A stretch of 46,069 bases of DNA from a virus, in IMG/VR virus record IMGVR_UViG_3300045968_000013, positions 1 to 46,069 of that record; one strand, 5' to 3'. This document shows positions 39,505-45,760 of this stretch, piece after piece. Both the position numbers and the translations under genes were made by a program. Under the pieces are notes generated by a model. It made no database searches. It was not told where the DNA came from and worked only from the letters and a program-made list of their open reading frames with translations. The stretch's first letter is position 1, and each line of letters begins with the position of its first letter.

Positions 39505-39656
39505 CGGTCGATTGGACCCAGTGGTCGCTGACCGACGACGCGGCGAACGCGGCGCTGCTCGCGAAGTATCGCGACATCGTCGCGATGGAGATCGCTCGCG
39601 CCAAGGCAAGCAACTGGCAGCGCGTCACCGATGCGATCTACGGGAGGCGCGTGTGA
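39501..39656 (+). CDS. Short hypothetical protein, 51 aa
   Basis: Starts ATG 39501 in an overlap with the upstream stop and ends TGA 39654-39656 overlapping the portal start GTG 39653. MTVDWTQWSLTDDAANAALLAKYRDIVAME and NWQRVTDAIYG. Three Trp in 51 residues. The coupling argues for reality. Confidence 0.6.
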   Translation: MTVDWTQWSLTDDAANAALLAKYRDIVAMEIARAKASNWQRVTDAIYGRRV

Positions 39657-41992
39657 TCACGAACCAAAGCACGCCGAACGCGCCCGCCAGCGACGACATC
39701 CGGCACGACGACCTGGAGTTCAACCCGCAGCTTGAGCCGAAGAAGGCGAAGGCGTGGCTCAATTTGCTTGAGGAGAGCGAGAAGGCGTTCGAGCCTTGGA
39801 ACGATCACTGCGACAAGATCGAGAAGCAGTACGCCAACTTGGCGCGGCTCGCGCAGAACGCCCGCGATAAAGAATTTCAAATGTTCTGGGCGAACATCGA
39901 GGTCGAGAAGCCCAGCATCTACGCGAAGCCGCCGCAGCCGGTCGTTGTCACAAAATTCAAGGACCGCCGTCCGGTGCCGCAGGCTGCTGCCGAAATTCTC
40001 GAACGCATCAACGTCGTCGCGTTCGACCTCACGCACATCGACGAAGTGATGAAGCAGATGCGCGACGATGTCGTGCTCAACGGGCGCGGCGTGCCGTGGG
40101 CGCGCTACGAGAGCAAGAACAGCTACGGCTCGTTCTACAATTCGGAGCGCGTGTGCATCGACTTCAAGCATCGCAAGGACTTCCTGCACAGTGTCTCGCG
40201 CTGCTGGTACGAGGTGTGGTGGGTCGCGGGTGCTGCGTACCTGACACGCGAGGAGGCGCGCGACCGCTTCCACAAATACTCAGGCGACGAGTACCAGGAC
40301 GCCGAGTACACCGTTGACAAGGACAGCAAGGAGCTTGGCGGCACCGACAACCGCGAGCGCGCCAAGTTCTGGGAAATCTGGGACAAGAAAAATTACCGCG
40401 TCGTGTGGGTCGCGAAGGGCTGCGAGAACATCCTCGACGAGGACGATCCGCACCTCGACCTCACCGACTTCTTCCCGTGTCCGAAGCCTGCGTACGGCGT
40501 GACGCAACCCGGCTCGCTCGTGCCGGTGCCCGACATCCTGCAGTACAAGGATCAACTCGACGAAATCAATTTGCTCACCGCGAAAATCCACGCGCTCTCC
40601 GATGCGCTGGAGGCGAAGGGCTTCTATCCGGCAGGTGGTGCCGAGCTTGGTGACGCGATCCAGGCCGCGATTGCGGTGAAGACACCAGGGCGGCTGCTCG
40701 TGCCGATCTCCAACTGGGCGGCGTTTGGCGGCAGCAAGGAGGTGATCGTTTGGCTTCCGATGGTCGAGATCGCGCAGACGATCACGTCGCTGCAGCAGCT
40801 GCGTCAGCAAATCATCCAGGACGTTTACCAGATCAAAGGCCTGTCCGACATCATGCGCGGCGCGACCGACCCGCGCGAGACGATGGGCGCGCAAGAACTC
40901 AAGACGCAGTTTGGTTCGATCCGCACGCGCGACAAGCAGGACGAGCTTGTGCGCGTTGCGCGCGACCTCGTCGTGATCGCGTCCGACATCATGCTCGATC
41001 AGTTCGAGGACAAGACCATCATCGAAATGAGCCAGACGCAGCTGCCGACGACGAAGATGAAGCGGCAGATGATCGAGCAGATGCAGGCGCAGCTGCAGAA
41101 GCAGCAGCAGGCGATGCAGATGATCCAGACCGACCCGCAAATTCAGCAGAAGCTGCAGGCCAGCCCGGAACAGGCGCAGCAGCTGCAGACGCAGGGCCCG
41201 CAGCTGCTCCAGGCCGGTCAGCAAGCCATCGACGACCTGATGCAGAAGCCGACGTTCGAGCAGGTGATGACCTTCCTGCGCGACATGCGGACCCGCGCGT
41301 TCGTGCTCGACATCGAAACCGACAGCACCATCCTGATCGACGAGAACACCGAGAAGCAGCGCCGCACTGAGTTCGTCGGCGTGCTCGCGCAGCTGATCCC
41401 GCAGCTGTCGCAGATGGTGGTGGCGCAGCCGGAAATGGCTTCCTTCGCTGGCGAGCTTCTCAAGTTTGCCACCGCGCCGTTCCGCGCCGGTCGCTCGATG
41501 GACACGGCAATCGACAGCGCGGTGAACCAGCTGCAGGCCAAGGCCAACCAGCCGCGCGGCGACGACCCGACCACGGCAGCGAACAAGATCACGCTCCAGG
41601 TCGAGCAGATGAAGGACCAGACCAACAAGCAGAAGAACGCGGACGACAAGGAACTGCGCACGCGCGAAATGGACATGAAGGACCAGACGCAGCGCGCCAA
41701 GATCGCGAGCACCGAGCGCATCCAGCTGGGCAAGCTGCAGCAGCAGCAGACCGACAACGAGGCCGACAAGCAGAAGACGCAACTCGAAATGATCCAGACC
41801 CGCGAGGACGCGCAGGCGAAGCGCCTCGACACCATTGGAAAGATGAGGCTCAACGAACAGAAGATGCAGATGGCTGCTCAGCAGAACCAGCAGAAGCAGC
41901 AAGACTTCGCCAACCGTGCCGCCGAGCGCCGCGCGCTGCAGCAATTCCGCGTCAACCAGCAGGCCTATCGCCCGCCAGGAGGTGCGATGTGA
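39653..41992 (+). CDS. Portal protein, P22-like, 779 aa
   Basis: Dodecameric DNA entry and exit ring of the head and anchor for the tail. Start GTG 39653 chosen; 47 upstream codons in the same frame are shadow. Features: N-terminal helical region with E-K-A-F-E-P-W-N-D, several W-rich and DD motifs (FWANIEVEKPSIYAKPPQP; VPWARYES; CWYEVWW; ERAKFWEIWDKKNYRVVWVAKG), conserved in podovirus portals, a CPKPAYGVTQPGSLVPVPD loop near 275-295, and long Gln-rich helices (about 460-545 and 640-779) forming the barrel or tail-binding part. The size (779 aa) is large, as for P22 gp1 (725). Confidence 0.85.
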   Translation: MITNQSTPNAPASDDIRHDDLEFNPQLEPKKAKAWLNLLEESEKAFEPWNDHCDKIEKQYANLARLAQNARDKEFQMFWANIEVEKPSIYAKPPQPVVVTKFKDRRPVPQAAAEILERINVVAFDLTHIDEVMKQMRDDVVLNGRGVPWARYESKNSYGSFYNSERVCIDFKHRKDFLHSVSRCWYEVWWVAGAAYLTREEARDRFHKYSGDEYQDAEYTVDKDSKELGGTDNRERAKFWEIWDKKNYRVVWVAKGCENILDEDDPHLDLTDFFPCPKPAYGVTQPGSLVPVPDILQYKDQLDEINLLTAKIHALSDALEAKGFYPAGGAELGDAIQAAIAVKTPGRLLVPISNWAAFGGSKEVIVWLPMVEIAQTITSLQQLRQQIIQDVYQIKGLSDIMRGATDPRETMGAQELKTQFGSIRTRDKQDELVRVARDLVVIASDIMLDQFEDKTIIEMSQTQLPTTKMKRQMIEQMQAQLQKQQQAMQMIQTDPQIQQKLQASPEQAQQLQTQGPQLLQAGQQAIDDLMQKPTFEQVMTFLRDMRTRAFVLDIETDSTILIDENTEKQRRTEFVGVLAQLIPQLSQMVVAQPEMASFAGELLKFATAPFRAGRSMDTAIDSAVNQLQAKANQPRGDDPTTAANKITLQVEQMKDQTNKQKNADDKELRTREMDMKDQTQRAKIASTERIQLGKLQQQQTDNEADKQKTQLEMIQTREDAQAKRLDTIGKMRLNEQKMQMAAQQNQQKQQDFANRAAERRALQQFRVNQQAYRPPGGAM

Positions 41993-42852
41993 GCATGCGC
42001 GATGCGATTGCGAAGGCGCTTGCCCGCGCTGGCGGTCGCGAGCCGCTGCCTGGATTGCCGAACAAGGCGCAGACCGTCGAGGGCGAGTTGTTCGTCCCTG
42101 GTCCGTACGGCAAGGCGCACGACGTTGCCGAACAGTACATGGGCTTGCAGGGCCGAGCGTACGTACCGCCGAAGCAATACGCGCCGCTCGATAAGGATCA
42201 GGCGAAGCGTATTGCCGAGGCGTTCGACCAGCTGCCGCTCTACGACCCGAAGGCGCTGTCGTCCTACGACGCGATGATCCGCGAGACACTCGGTCAGTAT
42301 CAAGCGATCAAGAACACCGGGCTCGACATCAAGCCGGTCGATCTCTCGACCTATCCGTACGGCTCGAACCCGCGCGCTGTTGCGCGCGATGTCGCCGACA
42401 ACAATCGCATGGCGTTCTTCAAGACCGGCGAGGGCTTCGGCACCGGCACGTCGGAGAAGAACCCGCTGCTGCGCCAGTCCGGCGAGTACGTCGGCGACTA
42501 TCCGATGTTGAACAACGATCTCTTCCGCGTCGTGCATGATTACTTCGGCCACATCAAAGGCGGCTACGGCTTCCGCGCTGGCGGCGAAGACAATGCGTGG
42601 CGCGCTCACGGTCGCATGTACTCGCCCGAAGCGCTCCCTGCCATGACAAGCGAGACGCGCGGCCAGAACTCGTGGGTGAACTCTGGTCCGCACGCCGACT
42701 TCAACAAGACCGCAAGCGGTGCCGACACGGTCTACGCGCCGCAGAAGATCGCGATCATGCCGTCGTGGACCTGGAGCGATCTCGGCAAGTACGCGATCCC
42801 TGGCGCGATGGGCGGGCTCGCAGCTGCTGATCAGTACGGGAGCGCGCCATGA
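41989..42852 (+). CDS. Virion-module protein with candidate H-x4-H...E metal site, 287 aa
   Basis: Begins GTG 41989 in the portal stop, behind AGGAGG. The N-terminal half (residues 1-115) is mixed; residues 138-235 contain FRVVHDYFGHIKGGYGF with H183 and H188, GGEDNAW (E200), AHGRM (H207) and AMTSETRGQNSWVN (E222). H-x4-H followed after 33 residues by E recalls the iron site of aromatic amino-acid hydroxylases. The match is pattern-only. The C-terminus AMGGLAAADQYGS is shared with the next protein. Likely a head-region component. Confidence 0.65.
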   Translation: MSMRDAIAKALARAGGREPLPGLPNKAQTVEGELFVPGPYGKAHDVAEQYMGLQGRAYVPPKQYAPLDKDQAKRIAEAFDQLPLYDPKALSSYDAMIRETLGQYQAIKNTGLDIKPVDLSTYPYGSNPRAVARDVADNNRMAFFKTGEGFGTGTSEKNPLLRQSGEYVGDYPMLNNDLFRVVHDYFGHIKGGYGFRAGGEDNAWRAHGRMYSPEALPAMTSETRGQNSWVNSGPHADFNKTASGADTVYAPQKIAIMPSWTWSDLGKYAIPGAMGGLAAADQYGSAP

Positions 42853-44705: not shown

Positions 44706-45359
44706 ATGGCTCAGAGCGCACTGACCGTCACCACACCGAACCCGACCCCGCCGACGAACCTGTCGAGCATCGGCGCAACGCCGCCGACTGATCCCGCGCA
44801 GGCCTTCGCCGACGACGGCATCGCGATGCCGACGCCAAACTCTGGCTCGCTCGCGGCAGCGAACGGCGCGACCGCCAACGAGCCGAGCGGCACCGGCACC
44901 ACCTTCGCGGCGAAGACTGCTGCTGCAGGTGCAGGCACCAGCGTCGATAACGAAGGCAAGGGCACCGAGACGGTGGTCACCGCCACCGTGCCGAACCCGA
45001 GCCCCGCCGGTCAGCTGAAGACCGTGTCGGTTCTCGGCAACTACACCAACTTGGTGTCGAGCCCGCCGAACCAGCAGCATGCGTCGAGCTTGACGCCGCT
45101 GACCAATCCGGCGCTCGCGTCCATTGCGCCGCCTTCGGTCGCGTCGGGTGCAGGCACGCAGCTGCTCACCTGCACCGGCACCAACTTCACGCGGCAGTCG
45201 GTGATCTGGGTCAACGGTGTTGCGCAGGCGACGACGTTCGTGTCGCCGACCACCATCACCGCGACCGTCACCAAGAAGGCGACCGCCGGTACGTGGCCGG
45301 TCGTCGTCGTTACGGGCGGCGTCATCACCACCGCGCCGCAGACCTGGACGTTCACATGA
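44706..45359 (+). CDS. Ig-like (IPT/TIG) domain head protein, 217 aa
   Basis: AGGAGG site before ATG 44706. The first 120 residues are Ala/Pro/Thr-rich and disordered. The rest is an IPT/TIG-type Ig domain: IAPPSVASGAGTQLLTCTGTNFTRQSVIWVNGVAQATTFVSPTTITATV. Such domains on phage heads or tails help adhesion. Decoration of the capsid is the leading inference because it lies between portal and scaffold genes. Confidence 0.65.
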   Translation: MAQSALTVTTPNPTPPTNLSSIGATPPTDPAQAFADDGIAMPTPNSGSLAAANGATANEPSGTGTTFAAKTAAAGAGTSVDNEGKGTETVVTATVPNPSPAGQLKTVSVLGNYTNLVSSPPNQQHASSLTPLTNPALASIAPPSVASGAGTQLLTCTGTNFTRQSVIWVNGVAQATTFVSPTTITATVTKKATAGTWPVVVVTGGVITTAPQTWTFT

Positions 45360-45760
45360 GCACCATCAAGAGCATCAACGAGCCCGAGACTGTCGGTCAC
45401 GGCAGTCTCAGGCCCGCGAGCCCGAACGAACCGCCGGTCGCGCCTGACATGCCGACGCCGGTCATCACGTCGCTGGAGCCGAACTCGTGCGTGATTGGTC
45501 AGCCTGACTTCACGCTCTACGTCCACGGCACCGGCTTCTTCGCTGGCAGCGTGATCCACTTCGCCGGTCACGATGAGCCGACGACGTTGAACGAGGACGG
45601 CACGCTCTCAACCGGCGTGAAGCCGTCGCTCTGGCTGAACCCGGCCGTCGTGCAGTGCGCGATCCGCAACGGCGAGGTGGTGTCTGCTCCGGTGGACTTC
45701 ACGTTCCGCGAGGAGGACGAGCCGCCGACCTCGCGCCACGCGCACAAGCGCAAGAGGTAG
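45356..45760 (+). CDS. IPT/TIG-like domain protein, 134 aa
   Basis: ATG 45356 overlaps the previous stop. Contains TPVITSLEPNSCVIGQPDFTLYVHGTGFFAGSVIHFAG, a second TIG-type Ig unit, with VDFTFREED at the end and a basic tail RHAHKRKR. Similar in design to the protein before it, probably an ancient duplication or a pair of decoration subunits. Confidence 0.65.
   Translation: MSTIKSINEPETVGHGSLRPASPNEPPVAPDMPTPVITSLEPNSCVIGQPDFTLYVHGTGFFAGSVIHFAGHDEPTTLNEDGTLSTGVKPSLWLNPAVVQCAIRNGEVVSAPVDFTFREEDEPPTSRHAHKRKR

Follow-up and report, generated by a model that had tools for sequence, protein, structure and literature searches.

Introduction

Injected multidomain phage proteins that contain uncharacterised enzymatic domains are already known. 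Polyvalent proteins, in which effector-type domains such as ART-PolyVal, Zeta toxin, GNAT and LPD23 are combined, are predicted to enter the cell together with the phage DNA, and zincin-like peptidases are common in them (Iyer et al. 2017, PMC5512222). Two enzyme-related families are also relevant to the locus described here. The aromatic amino-acid hydroxylases (AAHs, PF00351) have an H-D/E-x-F-G-H motif and a later Glu. The COQ4 family (PF05019) has the motif HDxxH-x11-E, and its homologue Alr8543 binds two Mg2+ ions with H120, D121, H124 and E136 (PMC9774615). Among phage protein families, PHROG 3170 contains the gp105-type proteins of Mycobacterium C1-cluster phages and gp166 of Gordonia phage Skog, and PHROG 7806 contains LKA1 gp7 and phi15 gp2.

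We analysed 46,069 nucleotides of a viral record (IMG/VR IMGVR_UViG_3300045968_000013; this whole stretch is called the window), in which a gene directly behind the portal gene encodes a single domain, hereafter the HDGH domain. The same domain is found in PHROG 3170; in the C1 phages, it makes up a gene of its own (433 aa), and the surrounding region contains genes for head fibre and head decoration. The LKA1-type proteins (PHROG 7806) are about 160-190 aa long, usually have one residue fewer between the two motif histidines and are expressed early, whereas the gene in the window is placed beside the portal. In polyvalent proteins, the domain lies within giants that also carry ART-PolyVal, Zeta toxin, GNAT or LPD23 domains (PMC5512222), whereas the window copy stands alone. 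With the AAHs, the window protein shares the motif and a later Glu, but nothing significant beyond the motif, the spacing is different and there is no global fold match; with COQ4, it shares a near-identical metal motif, in which its histidines are one residue further apart. We consider that HDGH is probably an enzyme domain that depends on a metal and belongs to phage proteins acting early in infection.

Genomic context and distribution of the HDGH domain

The genes for the portal, the HDGH protein and a 615-aa protein follow one another in this order in the window, and all of them overlap (Table 1); the TGA of the portal gene overlaps the GTG start of the HDGH gene within the sequence GTGA. 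The 615-aa protein matches no Pfam or PHROG family and nothing in the phage collection; at other viral loci (L002 and L013-L015), its C-terminal ~380 residues recur downstream of the HDGH domain and share its reading frame. From its gene position, the window protein would belong to the virion. Behind the portal module, the window has two further consecutive ORFs (44706-45760), the first with an IPT/TIG domain, and both are kept beside the same type of portal in L002 and L011. PADLOC reported nothing for the window protein, and a PG_binding_2 match (E 0.01), which was below the cut-off, was ignored.

Table 1. Positions of the HDGH-domain gene, its neighbours and its putative site residues in the window, and of distant members at other loci.
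Feature	Position	Strand	Remarks
Portal gene	39605..41992	+	directly upstream of HDGH gene; phrog_12082, E 7e-177; 39605 is an in-frame position from which searches were run rather than a mapped start
AGGAGG, likely ribosome-binding site	41977..41982	+	6 nt 5' of GTG; from sequence
HDGH-domain gene	41989..42852	+	287 aa, GTG start; homologues, PHROG 3170
Alternative ATG start of HDGH gene	41995	+	from sequence
Core motif N176-D-x-F-R-x-x-H183-D184-x-x-G-H188	42514..42552	+	predicted helix 175-189 (AF2)
H183 codon	42535-42537	+	from sequence
D184 codon	42538-42540	+	from sequence
H188 codon	42550-42552	+	from sequence
E200, exactly x11 past H188	42586..42588	+	predicted helix 197-208; 110/111
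H207	42607..42609	+	same predicted helix as E200; 110/111
E222-T-x-x-Q226	42652..42666	+	predicted helix 216-232; E222 codon 42652-42654
Downstream gene, 615 aa	42849..44696	+	ATGA overlap with HDGH stop
PHROG 7806-type early proteins of T7-like Pseudomonas phages	L185:3662-4228; L299:609-1109; L300:1329-1820		distant HDGH members

PHROG 3170, annotated as being of unknown function, was the sole database family matched by the window protein (E 3.2e-20), and all 111 sequences in our alignment of viral and cellular relatives (alignment A2) matched it as well. Relatives were found by tblastn in 200 phage records and by seeded scans in at least 595 viral (IMG/VR) stretches and 127 genome stretches. 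The family is common in viruses and occurs in the cells of at least four bacterial groups. Nevertheless, it is matched by no Pfam model at the cut-off, including the LPD models in Pfam, by no NCBIfam model and by no solved structure; searches of PDB sequences with one sequence and three profiles gave a best E of 0.19, and none of the matches was relevant. A seed-free profile scan of 493 Flavobacteriales and Actinomycetes genomes, among which two genomes that had supplied queries were counted apart, yielded one further clear member (L265). Cellular members are thus rare, and therefore no family bridging the domain to a known enzyme emerged. The domain appears to be undescribed in the resources searched, but it may have been mentioned before without a name, among the LPDs that accompany the polyvalent-protein paper.

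Conservation of the putative site

An earlier note on this DNA had proposed a possible enzyme-like metal site with an H-x4-H...E triad in the window protein; it listed H183, D184, H188, E200, H207 and E222, and gave a spacing of 34 from H188 to E222. All six residues are encoded at the codons given there, and the spacing is as described. The bare pattern is cheap, since, of 157 background ORFs with lengths of 200-400 aa, 26 (17%) contain H-x4-H-x(28-45)-E, as do 3.4% of shuffles of the window protein; conservation is therefore the real question. Ten residues are invariant in the 111 sequences (N176, D177, F179, R180, H183, D184, H188, F195, G199 and Q226), and E200, H207 and E222 are each kept in 110, as are V182 and G187. 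The note had named variability at H183, H188 and E222 as one of two findings that would count against the site, and these three residues are conserved (111/111, 111/111 and 110/111, respectively).

Because the search seeds include some of the conserved residues, we also examined subsets of the alignment. In the 51 viral rows that carry the ETxGQN seed, positions 183, 184, 188, 200 and 207 are kept throughout (51/51), and the 43 genome rows in which the GE..H seed is missing keep positions 188, 200 and 222 in 43/43 and position 207 in 42/43. The conservation of the site is not imposed by the search seeds, and it lifts the H-x4-H...E site above chance. To judge from the alignment, D184, E200 and Q226 are as much a part of the putative site as the residues that the note had stressed. 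L265, an actinobacterial homologue that has diverged very far, retains HDVLGH...GE, which includes the equivalents of H183, D184, H188 and E200, and has lost H207 and E222.

Confident AlphaFold2 models of two distant members (pLDDT 93.0 and 93.5) both consist of a strand-helix-strand unit followed by three helices, which carry HDxxGH, E200/H207 and E222, respectively. H183, H188, E200 and E222, probably together with D184, may coordinate one metal ion or two in a place where the three helices would meet.

Short relatives in T7-like phages

A search of BFVD with the predicted fold picked up other phage proteins as well, some of them short. One of the short ones, LKA1 Q0E607, we take to be LKA1 gp7, the LKA1 protein of matching length. 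When eight LKA1-type proteins were compared with the window family by hhalign, the match had Prob 96 and P 3e-9, and N..FR..HD.GH-x11-E and [DE]T..Q were aligned in register. In these relatives, E200 is kept, the residue at 222 is Asp in most and H207 is not kept. From this comparison, we take the core site to consist of H183, D184, H188, E200, E/D222 and Q226, with H207 specific to the larger branch, and the consensus of the domain would be N-x2-F-R-x2-H-D-x(1-2)-G-H-x11-E ... [DE]-T-x2-Q.

In T7-like Pseudomonas phages, the genes for the short relatives lie mostly at about 0.6-2.4 kb, in the left early end, where the relative is gene 1 of Issaku and gene 2 of phi15; a search of viral contigs with LKA1 gp7 found only three close loci. 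Since these members are early genes, packaging into the virion is not general in the family. This bears on the reading in which the window protein is a non-catalytic virion or connector protein and its conserved residues hold a structural metal, as might be expected from the overlap with the portal gene, the place in a structural module and the downstream partner without an enzymatic family. We find that reading very doubtful, because the family also occurs among the T7-like early genes and on bacterial chromosomes beside an NAD enzyme, where a virion role is impossible, and because conserved N, R, D and Q residues beside the histidines are typical of an active site.

Comparison with aromatic amino-acid hydroxylases

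How far does the resemblance to the hydroxylases, to whose iron-binding pattern the earlier note had likened the site, extend? An hhalign comparison of the HDGH family with bacterial PF00351 proteins gave P 2e-4 (Prob 46, score 37.7) over ten columns (D.F...HD.FGH); the best of 300 column shuffles scored 23.7, and none of them (0/300) reached the score of the real alignment. This P value is not blind, because it was the motif that prompted the comparison. When D-x-F-(R-x-V)-H-D-x-F-G-H was masked, the next-best match (KNTGLDIKPV with LTGWQVYAVP) was collinear and had P 0.21. Because the match is confined to about ten residues, we call it a shared motif, and homology with the AAHs is possible but unproven.

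Searches of the PDB with Foldseek, using the two models, returned nothing below E 0.001. Nevertheless, an AAH ranked first in each. For the first model this was tryptophan hydroxylase 2 (E 0.27, TM 0.14); for the second it was phenylalanine hydroxylase (E 2.2, TM 0.17), and AAHs made up 12 of the 44 listed matches. Because Foldseek also scores letters and both proteins carry the motif, the two rankings depend in part on each other. In the AAH fold matches, TM was 0.14-0.19 and the rmsd about 17-19 A; for these predicted structures, the ranking is suggestive but the geometry is not.

These results could mean that the window protein is a distant AAH homologue, possibly a pterin-free oxygenase, in which H183, H188 and E222 hold a mononuclear non-haem iron. 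The conserved 2-His-1-carboxylate triad H-x4-H...E is present, and the AAH core has a similar order of elements to that predicted here (helix, strand, helix, strand, HDxxGH helix, helix, Glu helix). We nevertheless regard such an origin as rather unlikely. The second His is separated from the Glu by 34 residues rather than about 40; D184 and E200 equal E222 in conservation and, unlike it, are retained in L265; furthermore, PF00351 did not match the window protein at E<=1 and was absent from the families listed for the 111 sequences (25 of 31). Literature searches for phage aromatic hydroxylases found nothing. The likeness is more than a casual pattern, whereas membership of the hydroxylase family was not supported. 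If the homology were true, early or injected proteins of phages would contain a non-haem iron catalytic core.

Comparison with COQ4 and metallopeptidases

A second reading assigns the metal to a COQ4-type site, in which H183, D184, H188 and E200 would be the ligands and E222 and H207 would form a second shell. The H188-x11-E200 spacing is that of the COQ4 motif, most LKA1-type relatives have exactly HDxGH-x11-E, and L265 keeps just these four residues; hhalign also places HD, H and E in register, although this match is weak (P 0.019, Prob 2.4). HDxxH-x11-E is found in most LKA1-type relatives, whereas the window protein has HDxxxH-x11-E, in which the second His follows one residue later. The COQ4 fold is all-helical, whereas our models have strands before the motif, and no COQ4 chain appeared among the listed PDB fold matches. 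On balance, we consider a COQ4-type site improbable. The HD-domain phosphohydrolases (PF01966) were rejected as relatives, because hhalign around the HD gave only P 0.3, with no profile similarity.

The frequency of zincin-like peptidases in polyvalent proteins (PMC5512222) raises the question of whether the domain might be a metallopeptidase that processes the polyvalent protein, as H-x4-H resembles the HExxxH of some peptidases and four members have weak matches to Pfam MATCAP. This seems to us highly improbable: the motif is HDxxGH with an invariant D184, and neither HExxH nor HExxxH with a catalytic Glu was found; a separate match of metallopeptidase type, weak and below the cut-off (DUF6782), is present in L013, and solo cellular members have nothing to process. 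The four members that match MATCAP (best E 6e-6) are relatives in the alignment and include L051. We discarded MATCAP (PF08014) as support for a peptidase, because the one match that could be located covers profile positions 6-87, falls in the region before the motif and is below the cut-off.

Occurrence in polyvalent proteins and a possible early role

At 40 of the 80 viral loci, the HDGH domain is part of a reading frame of at least 600 aa. Six giant members also have ART-PolyVal, Zeta_toxin, GNAT, DUF7178 or LPD23 domains, some of them matched below the Pfam cut-off, and the domain recurs in polyvalent proteins encoded near the portal. It is therefore polyvalent-associated, in the sense that it shares large multidomain proteins of phages with domains of effector type. 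At one locus (L020:3605-7471), a single polyvalent protein combines the HDGH domain with a kinase domain of the Zeta-toxin type (E 3e-19).

The earlier note had spoken of a metal enzyme tied to portal genes, which it expected to be new. A conserved, enzyme-like, metal-type site, the overlap with the portal gene and the portal-proximal polyvalent members agree with the tie; its novelty needs to be qualified, because the family also occurs among T7-like early genes and on bacterial chromosomes. The reading that we favour, and hold to be reasonably probable, is that the window protein is an undescribed enzyme domain standing alone, made early or brought in with the DNA, whose metal centre acts on a small molecule and so changes the host. 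Phages would make the domain early or bring it in with their DNA, alone or within polyvalent proteins; the metal centre would catalyse a reaction on a small molecule, and the protein, entering or appearing at the start of infection, could thereby alter host metabolism or defences.

Cellular members and a possible substrate

In Bacteroidota and in gamma- and alphaproteobacteria, the genes for solo members are grouped with those for an adenosylhomocysteinase-like NAD protein and DUF3293. This conserved cassette is present in L108-L116, L126, L138 and L120; L116 showed no DUF3293 match. Actinobacteria are also represented: in Actinophytocola (L120), all three parts of the cassette are joined in one 814-aa frame. 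The adenosylhomocysteinase-like protein is below the NCBIfam cut-offs and matches PDB sequences by phmmer at E 1e-14; literature searches on DUF3293 found nothing.

This linkage weakly suggests that the substrate might be a nucleoside- or homocysteine-type metabolite. In the phage T3, a SAM-cleaving enzyme occupies an early slot comparable to that of the short T7-like members. We considered that HDGH might represent a new metalloenzyme superfamily acting on an SAH/SAM-related or other nucleoside-type metabolite, with the SAHH-like NAD enzyme and DUF3293 as its cellular partners, and that its early or injected use by phages might upset host methylation or a nucleotide-based defence; in this specific form, the proposal is unlikely. 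The cellular linkage may also concern a different branch of the HDGH family. Together, the putative site (H183, D184, H188, E200 and E222) and the recurrent cellular partner offer direct ways to approach the reaction that this putative early effector of phages would catalyse.

The close cassette is absent from most of the other actinobacterial members. A distant SAHH-like gene (about 25% identity) is present in the fetched flanks of four loci, three of them actinobacterial and one from Paraburkholderia.
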